64,000 nucleotides of DNA from a virus: positions 60,258 to 124,257 of the IMG/VR virus record IMGVR_UViG_3300034198_008248, one strand, 5' to 3'. This document shows positions 778 to 16,267 of the stretch, in pieces. Made by a program: the position numbers and the translations under genes. Position 1 is the first letter of the stretch, and the number at the start of each line of letters is the position of its first letter. Under the pieces are notes generated by a model. The model did no database searches. It was not told where the DNA came from and worked only from the letters and a program-made list of their open reading frames with translations.

Positions 778-848
778 TAGGAATAGACAAAATCGAATTG
801 TCGTTCTCGCCGTATGAAAGCGTTGTCTTACCATTAGACGATATTCCA
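778..848 (-). tRNA. tRNA-Met (CAU)
   Basis: Acceptor TGGAATA/TATTCCT with a U1xU72 mismatch, D arm GTCT-AATGGTA-AGAC, anticodon arm ACGCT-TTCATAC-GGCGA (anticodon CAU, top pair A-A mismatched), and T arm GACAA-TTCGATT-TTGTC. CCA is not encoded. The anticodon stem lacks three consecutive G:C pairs, so this looks like an elongator-type or lysidine-modified Ile tRNA rather than an initiator. The choice cannot be made from sequence alone. Confidence 0.8.
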
Positions 849-961: not shown

Positions 962-1034
962 TTGCGGGTGAGGAAATCGAATCCTCCTCTCCGGGATATG
1001 AACCCGGAATGGTCAACCAGACCACCTACCTGCG
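962..1034 (-). tRNA. probable initiator tRNA-fMet (CAU)
   Basis: The 73-nt cloverleaf has 5' CGCAGGT and 3' ACCCGCA, giving a C1xA72 mismatch, the hallmark of bacterial initiator tRNA. The anticodon arm CCGGG-TTCATAT-CCCGG provides the three consecutive G:C pairs (29-31/39-41) that direct initiators to the P site. The T arm is GAGGA-TTCGATT-TCCTC and the D stem GTGG/CCAT has a GG-containing loop. A73 follows; CCA is not encoded. An extra A4xC69 mismatch is present, and pair 11:24 is U:A instead of the A:U of E. coli initiators. Confidence 0.75.
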
Positions 1035-1036
1035 AT

Positions 1037-1259
1037 TTAAATTTTTATTCTTTTTTTCGGATCTATACCAAAACCTAAACATCTTTTTCTAACTGCGTTA
1101 TCAGATGCCCCTTGCTTAGGAGGTCCATACTTTATTCTAGTGTTTAATCAATAAAGTTCCTCCGTCAACAATCGGCGCGATTGTCTTTCCCTTCAAACAT
1201 CGGTTGGTAATTGGAGTGCATTTAGTTGTAAAGTTATTTAGTTTTTTGGTTATTATTTT
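1037..1259 (-). pseudogene. coding remnants upstream of the tRNA cluster
   Basis: No intact gene is found here. Two adjacent minus-strand frames look protein-like. Frame 1 (stop at 1137) contains KGKTIAPIVDGGTLLIKH. Frame 2 (stop at 1037) contains QGASDNAVRKRCLGFGID, resembling the recognition helix of helix-turn-helix tails on phage endonucleases (SDNAVRKWC-type). Neither frame has an ATG in a sensible place. The region also forms the hairpin at 1119-1163. I read it as a decayed gene; this is tentative. Confidence 0.3.
1119..1163. repeat. 45-bp interrupted palindrome
   Basis: Inverted repeats GGAGG/CCTCC and CTTTATT/AATAAAG are nested around a 13-nt loop. There is no T-tract, so it is not a standard terminator. 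It lies between the fMet tRNA and the first protein gene and could be an RNA-processing hairpin for the tRNA transcript. Confidence 0.45.
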
Positions 1260-1649: not shown

Positions 1650-4619
1650 TTATTTAAGTATTCTAATGGATGAGTATATATTGAAGAATTCTTCAAACGA
1701 TTCAGCTAAATTTCCACTTACGTCACTAGCCGTAATGGAATTGATATCATCATCTATCTTTATCAATTCTTTCTGCAAATCAACTATTTTAGAAACCCAC
1801 TCTGCACCATTTTCTGATTCCAAATAATTCTGTCTATATGTTTGAATAATTTCAGCTATCTTTTTCTTCAATTCCACTTTTTCAAAAAGTTCTTGATCTT
1901 TCCCATCAGCTAACATATACTTGATATTGACATTTTGCACAGTATTGATTCTAAAAATTCTACCCTCACTTTGTTCTATCGATTCTGGGGTCCAATCAAA
2001 ATCATTGATTAACATATTAGCAAAAGTATTCGGAAATGAAATACCAGTCCCACCCATTTTCATACTCATTATCAGAACCTTCGAATCCTTATGTTCCATA
2101 TTTTTCTTAACATTAATTATTTGATCTTTTGGTGTTCCGCTCAAATATGTGTAAACTTTCCATTTTGGATTTATATTTTGCAATTTTTCCGATAATTGTG
2201 TATATAATGACTTCCCTGACTGAGCAAAATTTGTAAATATTAGAACTTTAGATTTTGCATAGTTGTGTGTTGAATCGTTTTGGTTTTCTGTTATAATTTT
2301 GATTGTTTCATTCACGGTATCCTGCACCTTGAGTTGAGCAATACTCTCTCTAAATGCTATAAGTTTAGATATTTCCAAATCTTCGTCTTTGTACGATTTT
2401 AATTTGTGGTCTACCATGATTTTTAAAAGGTCTTTATTTATAGGATTTGATTTTTTTTCGATATTGGCATCAGGCATTTTTTCTCCTTTGGCCGCTCTCA
2501 TATCCTTTTTACTATGTCTGATATAAACACCCGTTAAGGATAACCACCGATGTAAATTTTCGGCTGCTTCCAACTGTTGCTCTATGGTTCCGTTCACATA
2601 CGCCTTTGTCGCGCCACCATAATTTTGTCCGTAATCATTGTCTAAATCATCCTCGTCGTTATAAACCTTTTTAGATGGTTTTCGTCTTATATCTTTAAGA
2701 ACCATACCACAAAATTCTTTTTTGAATTTTCCAATCGATATATTACCCAATGGATGACCCAATAATCTTAGTTGATTTCTAACATTTATAGGTTCGTTAG
2801 ATGATAATGTTGCTGTAGCTCCCCACCTTATGGGTATATTTTTGGATATCTTTTCTATGTTTGCCGATGTTATAACTACTTTACTTCCTCGTTTTTCGTG
2901 TTTGACTCTGTGCAATTCGTCTAGAATAAGAACTTTAAATTTTGTAAATAATAATTTATCTATGACATTTTCTAAATTATTTCCACTTGAAAAATTGGGA
3001 TATCTAAGAATCGTCCATCGTTTTGGGTTCATTGGATCTGTCGATATTTCTGATCTCGCCTCTTCTCCCAAAACATCTATTATTTCTTGCACTATTTGTT
3101 TTTGAACAGCTTTCAAAGTGACGATCAATACATTTTCTTTCTTTTCTCTGGTCAATAAATCAGCAGCATATATAAATTGTATAGTTTTCCCGGCTCCTGT
3201 TTCGGAGCCTAGAATAGCATACTTTCTAGATGTTAAAAATTTAACACCTTCTTTTTGTAAATCGTATAGTTCAAATTTACTATTGGGATAATTCTCATTT
3301 AATTTATTATCTATAATATTTTTAAATTGGGGATTCAATTCTCCTTCAGCCTTTTCTGAATCATCTATTACACCAATCTTAATCTTTTCCTTTATTATTT
3401 TTTCTAATTCCTTTATATCAAATTCAAATCTTTCCATTATATCTTTAAACATCATTAACTGCTTATAATCCGCTGATACTTCGTATCGATATAATGTAGA
3501 ATTCCAAGAATAATCATAAAATATATACTGTATTAAATTTTTCAAAAATTCCTTCGATTCAATTGGTTGATTTCTTACATACGATAATCCAATTTTATCG
3601 GACTCTAAATTCGTAAATATTAATCCTTTTTCGGATTCATTTTTTATCGGTTCTTCAACATCGGAATATAATGAATCTAATTCAGATGTGTTTAAACCGT
3701 ATTTATCAAATAAAGATTTGAGTATTTTATACTCACTTGGGCTGCTGGATATTAAATGATTTTTGGTATTGAAATCGAAAGCCATCAATTTTGGTGTATA
3801 TCCCCTAGACTTAGCATCTTGATACACACCATAAGATTTTGATTGTGGTAATTCTATTTGATGCTTTTTACCATATGGGGTGTTTATAGTTTTTACAAAT
3901 TTGATTGATAATTCTGATGATTTAGTTTCTTTGTTATTTGTTATAGGATTTTCTTCACTCGATGTTGTATTTCCAATCTCTTCGACTGTTACATTAGGAA
4001 AAACTAAAGCATTTATCAACTTAGCCAATTCTAATTTCACATAGAATTGTTTATCTCCTAAAGATTCTTTGTTTTTACTGAAAAATTTAAATCTTGGGTA
4101 ATCGTAATTACCGTAATTATCTGATTCCTTCGGTGTATTATTTTGAGAAAAGTATATATTTTGGGCTTGTTTTATTTGTTTAGATAAATTAGATCTTGGT
4201 GATATATCATCTGGATAAGTAACTAAAACCTTTCCGTATGATGTCTTGGTATGATCAATTATGATTTTCCTAGTTTCAGACTCAACCTCCTTCACTCTAT
4301 CCTTCAACAAATCTTTCACAGATATCTCCAGTTGGTCATAATTTCTAACTTGTGTGTTTTTATAATTTCTGAGTATTCTCATCATTCTGTACAATATTTG
4401 TACAGTTACGGCATCGTCTTCTTGATCAAAATAAGGTAAAATATATGTTCTCGAATTGATTTTATCTGTCTGATTCATACCGATATCGTTCTTTTCTGTC
4501 ACATCATCGGTATAATATAGATTCGTGAATATATCCTTGACTCTTTTAACTATATTACCAGAAACGATATCAGATGCATTGTTTTCGGTTAACAACATTA
4601 GTATCTTTTTAACTATCAT
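1650..4619 (-). CDS. SNF2-type SF2 helicase/ATPase
   Basis: 989 residues from the ATG at 4619, which follows a late box by 5 nt (the open frame extends to 4646). The first ~450 residues have no family I recognise. An SF2 helicase core follows: Q-like LYDLQKEGVKFL, Walker A GSETGAGKT near residue 470, DELH Walker B near 566, motif III GATAT near 598, and QSEGRIFR (motif VI) near 880. The C-terminal lobe ending in DGKDQELFEKV is typical of Swi2/Snf2 and RapA-like translocases. Likely a dsDNA translocase acting on phage DNA or on stalled polymerase; its late promoter suggests use late in infection. Confidence 0.85.
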   Translation of the reverse strand: MIVKKILMLLTENNASDIVSGNIVKRVKDIFTNLYYTDDVTEKNDIGMNQTDKINSRTYILPYFDQEDDAVTVQILYRMMRILRNYKNTQVRNYDQLEISVKDLLKDRVKEVESETRKIIIDHTKTSYGKVLVTYPDDISPRSNLSKQIKQAQNIYFSQNNTPKESDNYGNYDYPRFKFFSKNKESLGDKQFYVKLELAKLINALVFPNVTVEEIGNTTSSEENPITNNKETKSSELSIKFVKTINTPYGKKHQIELPQSKSYGVYQDAKSRGYTPKLMAFDFNTKNHLISSSPSEYKILKSLFDKYGLNTSELDSLYSDVEEPIKNESEKGLIFTNLESDKIGLSYVRNQPIESKEFLKNLIQYIFYDYSWNSTLYRYEVSADYKQLMMFKDIMERFEFDIKELEKIIKEKIKIGVIDDSEKAEGELNPQFKNIIDNKLNENYPNSKFELYDLQKEGVKFLTSRKYAILGSETGAGKTIQFIYAADLLTREKKENVLIVTLKAVQKQIVQEIIDVLGEEARSEISTDPMNPKRWTILRYPNFSSGNNLENVIDKLLFTKFKVLILDELHRVKHEKRGSKVVITSANIEKISKNIPIRWGATATLSSNEPINVRNQLRLLGHPLGNISIGKFKKEFCGMVLKDIRRKPSKKVYNDEDDLDNDYGQNYGGATKAYVNGTIEQQLEAAENLHRWLSLTGVYIRHSKKDMRAAKGEKMPDANIEKKSNPINKDLLKIMVDHKLKSYKDEDLEISKLIAFRESIAQLKVQDTVNETIKIITENQNDSTHNYAKSKVLIFTNFAQSGKSLYTQLSEKLQNINPKWKVYTYLSGTPKDQIINVKKNMEHKDSKVLIMSMKMGGTGISFPNTFANMLINDFDWTPESIEQSEGRIFRINTVQNVNIKYMLADGKDQELFEKVELKKKIAEIIQTYRQNYLESENGAEWVSKIVDLQKELIKIDDDINSITASDVSGNLAESFEEFFNIYSSIRILK
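1651..1657 (-). promoter_or_regulatory. late promoter box TTAAATA
   Basis: Box ends 5 nt before the ATG at 1645 and lies at the 3' end of the helicase gene. The sequence between box and ATG (AGATT) is identical to that at the 4625 promoter. Confidence 0.7.
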
Positions 4620-4624
4620 AATCT

Positions 4625-4631
4625 TATTTAG
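4625..4631 (-). promoter_or_regulatory. late promoter box CTAAATA
   Basis: Box ends 5 nt before the ATG at 4619 of the SNF2-type helicase. It confirms that start over the upstream in-frame ATG at 4646. Confidence 0.72.
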
Positions 4632-4711
4632 TCCTTTATTTATCATATCGGATATATTTCTACGCTCTTGATTTGAGCCATTTTGGAGACTAAATAATCG
4701 AACGAAACGAG

Positions 4712-7907: not shown

Positions 7908-9494
7908 TTACACTAACTTTTGAGCTAACTTTCTCTCGTGTATTTGAGGTAAAGATTGAACCGTTGTTCCATGAGAATTCATACCCTCTTTATGAGCGAA
8001 TTCTCTCACCATTTCATTACTGGTAGTTAACCTCATAGGTATACCGTGATGATGGTGACTGTGGGGATAATTCAAAATAAGATCGTCGTCAGCTAAGGCA
8101 TATGATGGATACCATTGACCACCTATCAATGTCTCACTGATTACTAATCTTCTATTAGCATCTGTAGCGAATTTACCCAATACAGTTGTGTCTTGGGTCT
8201 GATGAACCTCTAAAGGTGCTGTTATATGCTGACAATACAATTCTCCTTCTACATATTGACCACCACCAACGATCAAATTTTTATTAATTCCTAATGATGA
8301 CTCAACATATACCTGACGGTTTGTTCTCAACACAATCGTTTTTAAGGATTGTAATTCCAATCCATTCTCAGAAGATATCTGAACTCCATGAGAAGCGTTT
8401 ATATTTATTTTTTTGAATCCTGCCTTTAAAGTAGCACCACCCAATTCCATAGGTCCAGTAGTTTTTAAATTGATACCACCAGAGCCAACCGTTCTAGCGA
8501 TTCTATTCCCTACTACTTTATCGTCATTCCCACATGGAAAATTAGAACTGTTATCTATCTCCTCTACATGAGGAACATAATCGTGATTTTTATAAGCACC
8601 AATTGTAGATATTAACATCTCTAGTGGTTGACTCCTACCCTTTTCATCTATTCTTATAGATGGATAATCGTTTATGGTCGCTCCGATTTGTTCATATCTA
8701 TGACGTTTAATAAAATTAATATCATCTCCACCATTACCCATTTTAGATTCTATTGGAGTTAATTTATCTTGAATATCTAAAATATCCTTATCAAGACTAA
8801 TAGAATTCAATGTCCATGTTCCACCTTCAGTCGATGAAGATACAGAACCACCAAACTCGACAACACCGGGAGCATTTGATCCAGATATACCAGCGGATTT
8901 TTCTATAAGTTTAGAATCTAACTTTCTATTTGTAGCTGGTTTGGTTTTTTTATAATCTAAGACTCTGGAGAATTCAACCACTTCATCCTTATCACTTTTC
9001 CTTATAGGAATACCCTTATATCCAGTGAATGTGTTAGAAACCGATAGAATATCATTACCAAGGGTTGGATTTTTTGATTTTTCTCCATTTAGATTTGTAG
9101 TTGTTCCATTAGGAATACTATATCCACCTCTGGTGGTTTTAAATTCGGAATTCTTTAGTGCTATTTCTCTATAAGTATTTTTCCAATCTTCAAATGCTTG
9201 AATTTGAGACTCATTAGTAAATCCTTTTAAAGTATAAGAATTTTCTCCAACTCTATTTGTCGAAACCTTATTGGTATAAACTGTTTTATCACCACCAGAA
9301 GTTTCAAAAATATCATTTACTACATTAGTCTGTTTATTATTTGTAGCTAATTCCGAGTTTACGACATTGGTAAAATTTATATTAGATCCAGATCTATGAG
9401 ATAATTTTATCTTCTCTTGTTCAGTGGTGTTATCGATATCTAAAGATCCACCACGTTGATTCAAGATTGTTTTGTTCCTATATATAAGAGACAT
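7908..9494 (-). CDS. gp5-C: gp5-like baseplate spike, beta-helical needle part
   Basis: 528 residues. Start 9494 is set by a late box 5 nt upstream; the open frame to 9521 includes the box. The N-terminal half is low-complexity Ser/Thr/Asn. From about residue 370 there are short strand-turn repeats (KINAS-GVQISSENGLELQS-type) like the triple beta-helix of gp5/VgrG. Near the end HSHHHHGIP resembles the His cluster that binds a metal at the tip of phage spikes. With the OB-domain gene just upstream it would rebuild a complete gp5; no lysozyme domain is present. Confidence 0.72.
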   Translation of the reverse strand: MSLIYRNKTILNQRGGSLDIDNTTEQEKIKLSHRSGSNINFTNVVNSELATNNKQTNVVNDIFETSGGDKTVYTNKVSTNRVGENSYTLKGFTNESQIQAFEDWKNTYREIALKNSEFKTTRGGYSIPNGTTTNLNGEKSKNPTLGNDILSVSNTFTGYKGIPIRKSDKDEVVEFSRVLDYKKTKPATNRKLDSKLIEKSAGISGSNAPGVVEFGGSVSSSTEGGTWTLNSISLDKDILDIQDKLTPIESKMGNGGDDINFIKRHRYEQIGATINDYPSIRIDEKGRSQPLEMLISTIGAYKNHDYVPHVEEIDNSSNFPCGNDDKVVGNRIARTVGSGGINLKTTGPMELGGATLKAGFKKININASHGVQISSENGLELQSLKTIVLRTNRQVYVESSLGINKNLIVGGGQYVEGELYCQHITAPLEVHQTQDTTVLGKFATDANRRLVISETLIGGQWYPSYALADDDLILNYPHSHHHHGIPMRLTTSNEMVREFAHKEGMNSHGTTVQSLPQIHERKLAQKLV

Positions 9495-9499
9495 ATTAG

Positions 9500-9506
9500 T
9501 ATTTAA
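9500..9506 (-). promoter_or_regulatory. late promoter box TTAAATA
   Basis: Box ends 5 nt before the ATG at 9494 and lies just before the stop region of the OB-domain gene. Confidence 0.68.
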
Positions 9507-9510
9507 GATA

Positions 9511-10248
9511 TCAACTGTCAAAGTCTATGGATTTCTTGACTCCTAGGATATTCATATTATCTGTATCATCGATAAGAGATAATTCTCTATAATCATGATA
9601 TTTACCGAAATAAACAGGATAATTAGAATCTCCTTCGTAATGAAATACCCAAACCTTTGACCCAACTTCTGGGATTCCAAACAATCCTTTGCCTTTGTTA
9701 ACATGTTTAGAGGGTGCATACGAAAACGAATATGGATTACATTTACCAGATAAATTTGAAATTGGGTTCGAGAAAGCATCACCTAATCGGGTTCCAAAAT
9801 TTTCATACAGAAAAGCTGGAGAAAATGAACCACTGGATAAAGTTGGTATTTCTGTAGTAGAAAATCCTTCCCCATAATTACAATCCGATATAACACATAG
9901 TTTACCGTCTTTATAAAATCTGAAATTATTAGATTCTCCAACTATAGGTGAGCATTGTTCAGCCCATGGTATAGCTTGAGCTATCTTTTCAAAAATATCA
10001 ACATCTGTCCAATCACCATTAGTCTCTTTATCATTCCATAATGTTTTTAAATTTTCACCAACACCTTTAACATGGATTTGATCATATTGCTCAAACCAAG
10101 AATCAAATGGTTGATTAGATAACTCGGGTATATAAACTTTGACACGATTCAACCCTAGAGGATCGTTTGTTTTTACTACAATTCCCCTATATGGTTTAAT
10201 ATCAACCCTTTTATACTCTTGACCACTACCACTACCTCTCACAAACAC
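9511..10248 (-). CDS. gp5-N: gp5-like baseplate hub OB-fold protein
   Basis: 245 residues if begun at the GTG at 10248. YRGIVVKTNDPLGLNRVKVYIPEL is the typical opening of the gp5/VgrG OB-fold, and the later GIPEVGSKVWVFHYEGDSNYPVYFG matches its last strands. It sits at the base of the tail spike. The start is doubtful: an ATG-initiated frame beginning at 10310 runs into this one through a slippery heptamer AAACCCG (10254-10248), so the real protein may start at 10310 and need a -1 frameshift. Directly upstream of the needle gene. Confidence 0.72.
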   Translation of the reverse strand: MFVRGSGSGQEYKRVDIKPYRGIVVKTNDPLGLNRVKVYIPELSNQPFDSWFEQYDQIHVKGVGENLKTLWNDKETNGDWTDVDIFEKIAQAIPWAEQCSPIVGESNNFRFYKDGKLCVISDCNYGEGFSTTEIPTLSSGSFSPAFLYENFGTRLGDAFSNPISNLSGKCNPYSFSYAPSKHVNKGKGLFGIPEVGSKVWVFHYEGDSNYPVYFGKYHDYRELSLIDDTDNMNILGVKKSIDFDS

Positions 10249-10992: not shown

Positions 10993-11442
10993 TTAATAAC
11001 CCAATAGACGCTTACGACGAGAATCTTGTGTAGATACTTCATGAGTGGCTGATAGAGCAGATGTTGGAACAGTTGTGGTTGTAGATAACCAAGGAAATAC
11101 TGTGTAATCACCGGGAGTCGTTTTAACCACAGCGAAATTTGATGTTGTTAAATTAGCTGGGATATTAAAGACAGATCCAGCAACATTGACTGTGACCGAT
11201 GGATAAGCTGTAAGATTGAATGTTGGTAGAGAACTGGTTGCAATAGTGAGAGTAACTGGATTAAATGCAATACCAACGTCATCAGTCGATAGAGAAACAA
11301 TACCCACATTTCTGGATGCAAATACTACACCAGCACCAGAAAGAAAAGATACGCCAGTAGCTGATAATGATGTTCCCACTAATGGTGGGAATCCTGTTTT
11401 AGCGGCAGATAAAAGATTTGTCTGAAAAATATAATTAGCCAT
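10993..11442 (-). CDS. putative virion surface/decoration protein
   Basis: 149 residues, very rich in Ser, Thr, Val and Ala, with alternating strand-like segments and a basic tail SRRKRLLGY. No charged catalytic motif. It has a late box 5 nt from its ATG and its own terminator and lies in the virion block. Composition fits a small beta-sandwich decoration or fibre-tip protein. The family was not recognised and the assignment is by context. Confidence 0.6.
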   Translation of the reverse strand: MANYIFQTNLLSAAKTGFPPLVGTSLSATGVSFLSGAGVVFASRNVGIVSLSTDDVGIAFNPVTLTIATSSLPTFNLTAYPSVTVNVAGSVFNIPANLTTSNFAVVKTTPGDYTVFPWLSTTTTVPTSALSATHEVSTQDSRRKRLLGY

Positions 11443-11447
11443 ATTAT

Positions 11448-11454
11448 TATTTAG
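11448..11454 (-). promoter_or_regulatory. late promoter box CTAAATA
   Basis: TTTGACTAAATA, ending 5 nt before the ATG at 11442. Confidence 0.72.
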
Positions 11455-15358: not shown

Positions 15359-16255
15359 TTAGGATACTTTTTTGGTCCCCCAAGTTTTGGAAAGCTCTGA
15401 GATATACATGTCACCATGGCTATCATCATTATTATTTAGTGATTCTTCTACAATTTTTTGTCTAGGAACCACATCGGGCTTGACAGACCGATTATTGATT
15501 GCTTCTTCTTTAAGAGTTACAAGTTTTTCTTTCTCTTGTTTCTCAAATAGACGAAGCGTATAATCAAAGTTTTCATTAATAAACTTAACAGATTTACCAT
15601 CTAGAGCTTTACGGATAAAGTTCTTTTTGGTTTCTGGTAGTTTAGCAGTTTTCTCTTCTAGAAGAGACTTAACCTGAACCTTTTCATAAGATTCGGTTAA
15701 CTTATTAAGTTTACCTTTGAGTGAGTTGTTTTCTTCTTCTAACTTATCGATTCTATTTTTACCATCTAGAACAGCACCTTTAATAGAATTATTGACCATA
15801 GCAACATCAACACCCAGAACTGCTCTCATGTTCTCAAGAACATTATAAGCGGATTTGTTTTTAACAGCTTGGGCAATATCTTGAGCATCGACTGCTTCAG
15901 CGATGTATGCGTCAATGAATTGTCCAACAGTTTCAACGATTTGTTTTTTGAAATTTTTAGCACCTTTATCTAAGTCCTTATTGATCTTACGCTCATAAAG
16001 TTTAACTACCTTAACGAGTTTAGATGCATTGTTCTTATCAACGGCTTCAACCAGACGCTTCATTTTCTTAGTGCGATCTTTATCAAGCACAGTGATAAGT
16101 GATTTTAGTTTATCAGCATATTGATCATCCTGTTCGATCAATGCAGCTTCTACTGCAAGTTCAACTTTGGAATCAAAAGCTTCTTGAATGGCATTCAAAG
16201 ATTCTTCGGTTAGAATCTTTTGAACATCTTCTGAAAACAGATTTTTAAGGCTCAT
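15359..16255 (-). CDS. gp22: prohead core scaffold, gp22-like
   Basis: 298 residues, highly helical and charged, with long coiled-coil stretches (DKLEEENNSLKGKLNKLTESYEKVQ). It begins MSLKNLFSEDVQKILTEESL, like T4-type scaffolds, and lies between the protease/core genes and the capsid gene. It would be assembled inside the prohead and digested by gp21. Ends with SELSKTWGTKKVS. Late box 5 nt upstream of ATG. Confidence 0.9.
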   Translation of the reverse strand: MSLKNLFSEDVQKILTEESLNAIQEAFDSKVELAVEAALIEQDDQYADKLKSLITVLDKDRTKKMKRLVEAVDKNNASKLVKVVKLYERKINKDLDKGAKNFKKQIVETVGQFIDAYIAEAVDAQDIAQAVKNKSAYNVLENMRAVLGVDVAMVNNSIKGAVLDGKNRIDKLEEENNSLKGKLNKLTESYEKVQVKSLLEEKTAKLPETKKNFIRKALDGKSVKFINENFDYTLRLFEKQEKEKLVTLKEEAINNRSVKPDVVPRQKIVEESLNNNDDSHGDMYISELSKTWGTKKVS

Positions 16256-16260
16256 AGATA

Positions 16261-16267
16261 TATTTAG
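16261..16267 (-). promoter_or_regulatory. late promoter box CTAAATA
   Basis: Box ends 5 nt before the ATG at 16255 of the scaffold gene. Confidence 0.72.

Follow-up and report, generated by a model that had tools for sequence, protein, structure and literature searches.

The minus-strand gene at positions 962–1034 of the window, by which we mean the whole 64,000-nucleotide stretch of viral DNA analysed, most likely encodes a phage initiator tRNA (tRNA-fMet). The initiator tRNA starts every bacterial protein. Our reading of the CAU tRNA at this site (tRNA positions 1–73) draws on an ARAGORN call, the sequence itself, covariance models and the pairs of the tertiary core. Phage initiator tRNAs have been known since 1975; what is unusual about this one is the small, phage-only family to which it belongs, in which two pairs of the tRNA core are inverted.

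The window comes from a 124 kb IMG/VR record, and the same virus is also represented by a 202 kb contig (L009/G001). It is a T4-like myovirus, with genes for a major head protein, portal, UvsX-like recombinase and DNA polymerase. The major head protein is ~33% identical to its best cultivated matches, which are cyanophages, and has many metagenomic relatives. The tRNA lies in a cluster of minus-strand tRNA genes that includes tRNA-Lys (UUU; 40–111; ARAGORN and Rfam), tRNA-Pro (UGG; 112–207; ARAGORN), tRNA-Asn (GUU; 295–366; Rfam, 50.9 bits, missed by ARAGORN), tRNA-Tyr (GUA; 447–537; ARAGORN) and a second CAU tRNA (778–848). A DNA helicase gene (1650–4646, minus strand; phrog_62, E 6e-48) adjoins the 962–1034 tRNA. 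A short open stretch at 1035–1160 (minus strand; KYGPPKQGASDNAVRKRCLGFGIDPKKRIKI) ends immediately upstream of this tRNA and may represent the remaining tail of a gene since lost.

Structure and identity of the 962–1034 tRNA

ARAGORN places the gene at 961–1034 on the minus strand as a tRNA-Met with anticodon CAT, the tRNA body being 962–1034. Read 5' to 3', the tRNA is CGCAGGU AG GUGG UCUGGUUGA CCAU U CCGGG UUCAUAU CCCGG AGAG GAGGA UUCGAUU UCCUC ACCCGCA A, a complete cloverleaf with a CAU anticodon. The original prediction had pointed to two initiator hallmarks, and both can be read directly from the sequence. Positions 1 and 72 are C1xA72 and form no Watson-Crick pair, and the anticodon stem under the CAU loop has three consecutive G:C pairs, G29G30G31:C39C40C41. 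The acceptor also has G2:C71, C3:G70, G5:C68 and A73. A second acceptor mismatch, A4xC69, recurs in a homologue from the related genome G006, whose acceptor is the same (C1xA72 and A4xC69). CCA is not encoded, and the pair at 53:61 is an unusual A53:U61.

Comparison with host initiators separates what is shared from what has changed. The E. coli metZWV initiator has in common with the window tRNA C1xA72, G2:C71, C3:G70, A73, G29–31:C39–41 and CAU. Host initiators have U8:A14 and G15:C48 in the tertiary core, whereas in the window tRNA both pairs are inverted, to A8:U14 and C15:G48. The D-stem has U11:A24 in place of the purine 11:pyrimidine 24 combination of hosts (A11:U24, a secondary formylation determinant), and the anticodon loop is UUCAUAU rather than CUCAUAA, with U32 and U38 in place of C32 and A38. 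The general Rfam tRNA model scores the gene at 24.9 bits, below its 29-bit cut-off. Despite this, the match is not due to chance since initiator and elongator/Ile2 covariance models both recover the tRNA over its full length (E 5.6e-9 and 1.4e-6 in 2 kb). The tRNA is real, with the hallmarks first described for it.

The two covariance models were built from 45 bacterial initiators (R1) and from 23 CAU elongator or Ile2-type tRNAs (R2). A score with the initiator model is not specific alone, a tRNA-Lys reaching 41.9 bits, so that it is the difference between the models that counts. The 962–1034 tRNA scores 40.2 bits with the initiator model and 24.8 with the elongator/Ile2 model, a 15-bit gap in favour of the initiator. 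As yardsticks, E. coli fMet tRNA gives 93.6 versus 46.7 bits and E. coli elongator Met tRNA 54.8 versus 87.5. The second CAU tRNA of the window (778–848; U1xU72, loop UUCAUAC; Rfam tRNA 50.7 bits) is probably elongator Met, at 35.5 bits with the initiator model and 45.5 with the elongator/Ile2 model. A third, from the same virus (G000:30387–30462), gives 21.0 and 73.9 bits and has the Ile2-like acceptor pairs C4:G69 and C5:G68. The 962–1034 tRNA lacks the features of a lysidine-type Ile2 tRNA, having C1xA72, A4xC69 and G5:C68 instead. Covariance scoring, proposed at the outset as a check, therefore sides with the initiator, and no high-scoring assignment to elongator Met or Ile2 emerged. A normal triad of CAU tRNAs thus seems to be present in the virus, the other two being elongator-Met-like and Ile2-like. 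With those roles filled, the 962–1034 tRNA is most likely the initiator.

Viral initiator-type tRNAs and their function

A tRNA-fMet of phage T5 was reported by Chen et al. (1975, PNAS 72:558), as cited in PMC4810235. By that description T5 resembles the window virus in having a phage-encoded formylmethionine tRNA beside a phage elongator Met tRNA. T5 is an unrelated phage, however, and fMet identity is given there as biochemical, whereas we infer it for the window tRNA. Cyanophages, large marine tailed phages rich in tRNA genes, are also said to carry tRNA-fMet (review PMC4810235) and so share an initiator tRNA with the window virus. Because annotations usually label phage CAU tRNAs as plain tRNA-Met, initiators among them are easily missed; 346 records among annotated phages match the E. 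coli fMet tRNA.

We scanned viral contigs using a pattern that leaves positions 1, 72, 32, 37 and 38 free, and found host initiators with the same pattern. The first 120 matching viral stretches yielded at least 85 well-formed CAU tRNAs with GGG/CCC. Among these matches listed, 67% of the 85 have an unpaired 1:72, compared with 1.8% of the 443 other tRNAs that these loci contain (Fisher p 4e-46, among the matches listed); the proportion in 90 host initiators is 98%. This contrast indicates that the two initiator hallmarks go together in viruses as they do in hosts. The loop CTCATAA occurs in 56 of the 85 viral tRNAs listed versus 89 of 90 in hosts, and A11:U24 in 30 of the 85 listed versus 87 of 90. 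Viral initiator-type tRNAs are hence common, and their structure is looser than that of host initiators at 1:72, 11:24 and the loop. The earlier generalization that phage CAU tRNAs are usually of elongator or Ile type was too strong given at least 85 viral CAU tRNAs with GGG/CCC, and with phage initiators both known and common, initiator identity alone is not exceptional. A search in which all phage initiators appeared to have a UUCAUAU loop reflected a query artefact, as the unbiased scan makes clear. Three initiator-type CAU tRNAs (L403:18411–18499, L438:4887–4975 and L423:2762–2855) have a variable region of ~20 nt, unusual for initiators.

An ordinary initiator role in phage translation is the most likely function. 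The host CCA enzyme would add CCA to the phage tRNA, host MetRS would charge it via its CAU anticodon, and the host formylase would be expected to accept the Met-tRNA because 1:72 is open and flanked by G2:C71 and C3:G70. IF2 would then bring it to the P site, where it may enlarge the fMet-tRNA pool, or replace host tRNA lost in infection, for starting phage proteins. MetRS recognises CAU, and formylase recognises the open 1:72, with A11:U24 secondary (PMC4611024). Domains of peptide deformylase, formyltransferase and IF3 were not found in the 12 records searched from the clade to which the virus belongs.

The altered anticodon loop could carry a more specific meaning, namely that its changes shield the phage tRNA when defence enzymes cut the loop of the host initiator, making the phage tRNA a nuclease-resistant replacement. 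Enteric VapC cleaves tRNA-fMet between A38 and C39 (PMC4105405), the position at which the window tRNA has U38, and a general nuclease-evasion model for phage tRNAs has been published (PMC10264068). U38 is found in 13 of the 85 viral GGG/CCC CAU tRNAs listed versus 0 of 90 host initiators, and loops other than CTCATAA in 29 of the 85 listed versus 1 of 90. Some altered loops (UUCAUAC), however, mark elongator-like tRNAs, for which reason we dropped the counting of every altered loop as nuclease evasion. Moreover, U38 is present in only 5 of the 57 viral tRNAs listed with an unpaired 1:72, most initiators of the clade keep CTCATAA, and Shigella phages mostly avoid encoding tRNA-fMet (PMC10264068). 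Protection from nucleases is thus a possible but unlikely explanation.

TAAATA boxes fused to start codons

The original prediction tied the tRNA to messages that seem to start at the AUG, and this premise is well supported. In 16 of the 71 window ORFs, TAAATA stops exactly 5 nt short of the ATG, and spacings of 5–7 nt bring the count to 22 of 71. Two such boxes, both on the minus strand and 5 nt before ATG, are the late-promoter-like box at 16261–16266 (gene 15359–16255) and the box at 11448–11453 (gene 10993–11442). The larger genomes of the clade, which we delimited by the major head protein, have 14–41 ORFs each with TAAATA at exactly 5 nt, and SD-like motifs precede ~1–7% of clade ORFs. 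In T4 and cyanophage S-ShM2 the same script places the box mostly 21–28 nt upstream of ATG; the late promoters of S-ShM2, a phage compared solely in this spacing, are leadered, unlike those predicted for the window virus. T4 late transcription begins about six bases after the TAAATA box. Combined with the 5-nt spacing, this predicts transcription starting at or beside the AUG, and suggests that leaderless late mRNAs may be the rule in a whole T4-like clade (G001–G020).

Initiator-type tRNAs are near-constant in the same clade. Unpaired-1:72 CAU tRNAs are present in G001, G004, G006, G012, G014, G015, G016 and G017, and in G002, where ARAGORN missed it. G005 has a U1:A72 CAU tRNA with A11:U24 and ambiguous scores (68.3 versus 65.3 bits). 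Of the 10 clade records with an untruncated tRNA cluster, 9 or 10 accordingly have an initiator-type CAU tRNA. The G020 contig starts inside the cluster and the fragment G011 is without any tRNA, so neither is evidence of absence.

The phage could thus be supplying extra initiator tRNA specialised for leaderless late messages that start at the AUG. The box spacing, the scarcity of SD-like motifs and the near-constancy of the tRNA all fit such a supply, and a review describes leaderless translation as reliant on IF2, opposed by IF3 and perhaps carried out by 70S ribosomes (PMC4611024). The specific link between leaderless messages and the tRNA did not gain support, however. The survey loci listed, all with initiator-type tRNAs, contain 1 box-ATG start in 806 ORFs, so such tRNAs are common in phages without the fusion, and T5 and cyanophages carry initiator tRNAs as well (PMC4810235). 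The family of the window tRNA itself occurs in Ochrobactrum phage OC (45 kb) and in G026, which have no box-ATG spacing, and in G024/G025, which have very few. Whether relatives with the fusion also carry the tRNA had been proposed as a check; nearly all of them have an initiator-type tRNA, but the inverted-core family is found without the fusion too. Co-occurrence within the clade is not independent, as its members share ancestry, and with both traits in nearly all its genomes the clade cannot separate cause from descent. We therefore consider specialisation for leaderless messages improbable and retain the ordinary initiator role. A T4-like clade that joins a box fused to the AUG with a near-constant initiator-type tRNA nevertheless allows a direct test of how leaderless messages relate to initiator supply.

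The inverted-core family and gene exchange

We define the inverted-core family by A8:U14 together with C15:G48, and it has six distinct members. A D-arm of GTGGTC-GGTT-GACCATT marks this small lineage, which comprises the window virus, G006, G027, G024/G025, G026 and Ochrobactrum phage OC. Both inverted pairs are present in every member, the window tRNA included, and among the 875 tRNAs parsed the two occur together in none outside the lineage. The closest cultivated relative is the tRNA-Met phiOC_p277 of Ochrobactrum phage vB_OspM_OC (MT028491), which shares with the window tRNA the D-arm, C1xA72, A8:U14, C15:G48 and the UUCAUAU loop, and differs in its stem (GGU:GCC), its encoded CCA and its paired acceptor 4:69. 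Besides this tRNA, the 45 kb of OC that include its tRNA cluster contain a single further CAU tRNA, a clear elongator Met, which makes the OC family member an initiator by exclusion. On this sequence evidence, the window tRNA belongs to a phage-borne lineage far diverged from host initiators. Matches to the D-arm pattern in L449, L451, L454–L457, L459 and L223 have no tRNA fold, nor do the matches to GGGNTCATNNCCC in G011 and G017 represent CAU anticodon arms.

Neither hallmark is uniform across the family. Positions 1:72 are CxA in three members, U:A in two and unpaired in one, whose bulged acceptor calls for manual alignment. Positions 29–31 read GGG, GCC, GGU, AGU, UGU and UGU, with three G:C pairs only in the window virus. 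Absence of the hallmark pairs from all relatives, named beforehand as an outcome that would speak against an initiator, was not what we observed, as an unpaired C1xA72 recurs in relatives; GGG/CCC, however, is kept in no relative in the family or the clade. GGG/CCC in the window gene may hence reflect drift rather than selection. In E. coli, a mutant in which all three stem pairs are altered undergoes charging and formylation but does not function in initiation (PMC10486304), which makes the relaxed stems of the family relatives a puzzle.

The unconserved stem and the elongator-like 11:24 would also suit an elongator Met or Ile2 tRNA that merely resembles an initiator, and U1:A72 in two family members, the low Rfam score, A4xC69 and A53:U61 likewise count against initiator identity. 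The covariance scores lie 15 bits toward the initiator, though, the open 1:72 is accompanied by A73, G2:C71 and C3:G70, and the virus already has elongator-like and Ile2-like CAU tRNAs, all of which renders an elongator or Ile2 identity quite improbable. It is similarly doubtful that inverted core and relaxed anticodon stem denote a phage-only initiator lineage adapted to start phage messages with less reliance on host quality control (for example, by 70S initiation on leaderless late mRNAs) or to escape host enzymes that target the normal initiator. As an initiator lineage with both core pairs inverted, the family could serve as a natural experiment on which features an initiator must have to be formylated and to enter the P site.

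The site of the gene differs between close relatives. We compared strains L009 and L010 on the basis of their helicase-gene flank, which is 97–99% identical. L010 is without the window's tRNA gene and has a different C1xA72 CAU tRNA at the same site, together with a tRNA-Glu, the 5' half of another initiator-type tRNA and a GIY-YIG endonuclease gene (SegE-like). As judged from these strains, initiator-type genes replace one another where the window tRNA lies, and replacement there by another C1xA72 CAU tRNA suggests that function is kept while the gene changes. That the gene is decaying, or is functionless cargo of an endonuclease-rich tRNA cluster, as A4xC69, the low Rfam score and its place in a short strain-swapped patch (in L010, the endonuclease gene and tRNA fragment) might imply, is highly unlikely given that all four stems are otherwise intact, that A4xC69 is common to the diverged G006 homologue and that several distinct phages retain the family.

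Within L010:8711–9585, the 5' half of an initiator tRNA resembling that of G017 is cut at C34, the GIY-YIG ORF spans 8776–9534 and the full initiator-type tRNA (9511–9585) overlaps the end of that ORF. From this layout, the endonuclease element seems to disrupt one initiator tRNA and to provide a second. In G006, two different initiator-type CAU tRNAs, both with C1xA72, are adjacent (L366:1625–1696 and 1704–1778). Elongator-like CAU tRNAs combining U1xU72 with a UUCAUAC loop occur in the window (778–848, minus strand), G006 (L366:1786–1858) and G004 (L395:12970–13044), and U1xU72 is also frequent in the tRNA-Gln (UUG) of the clade.
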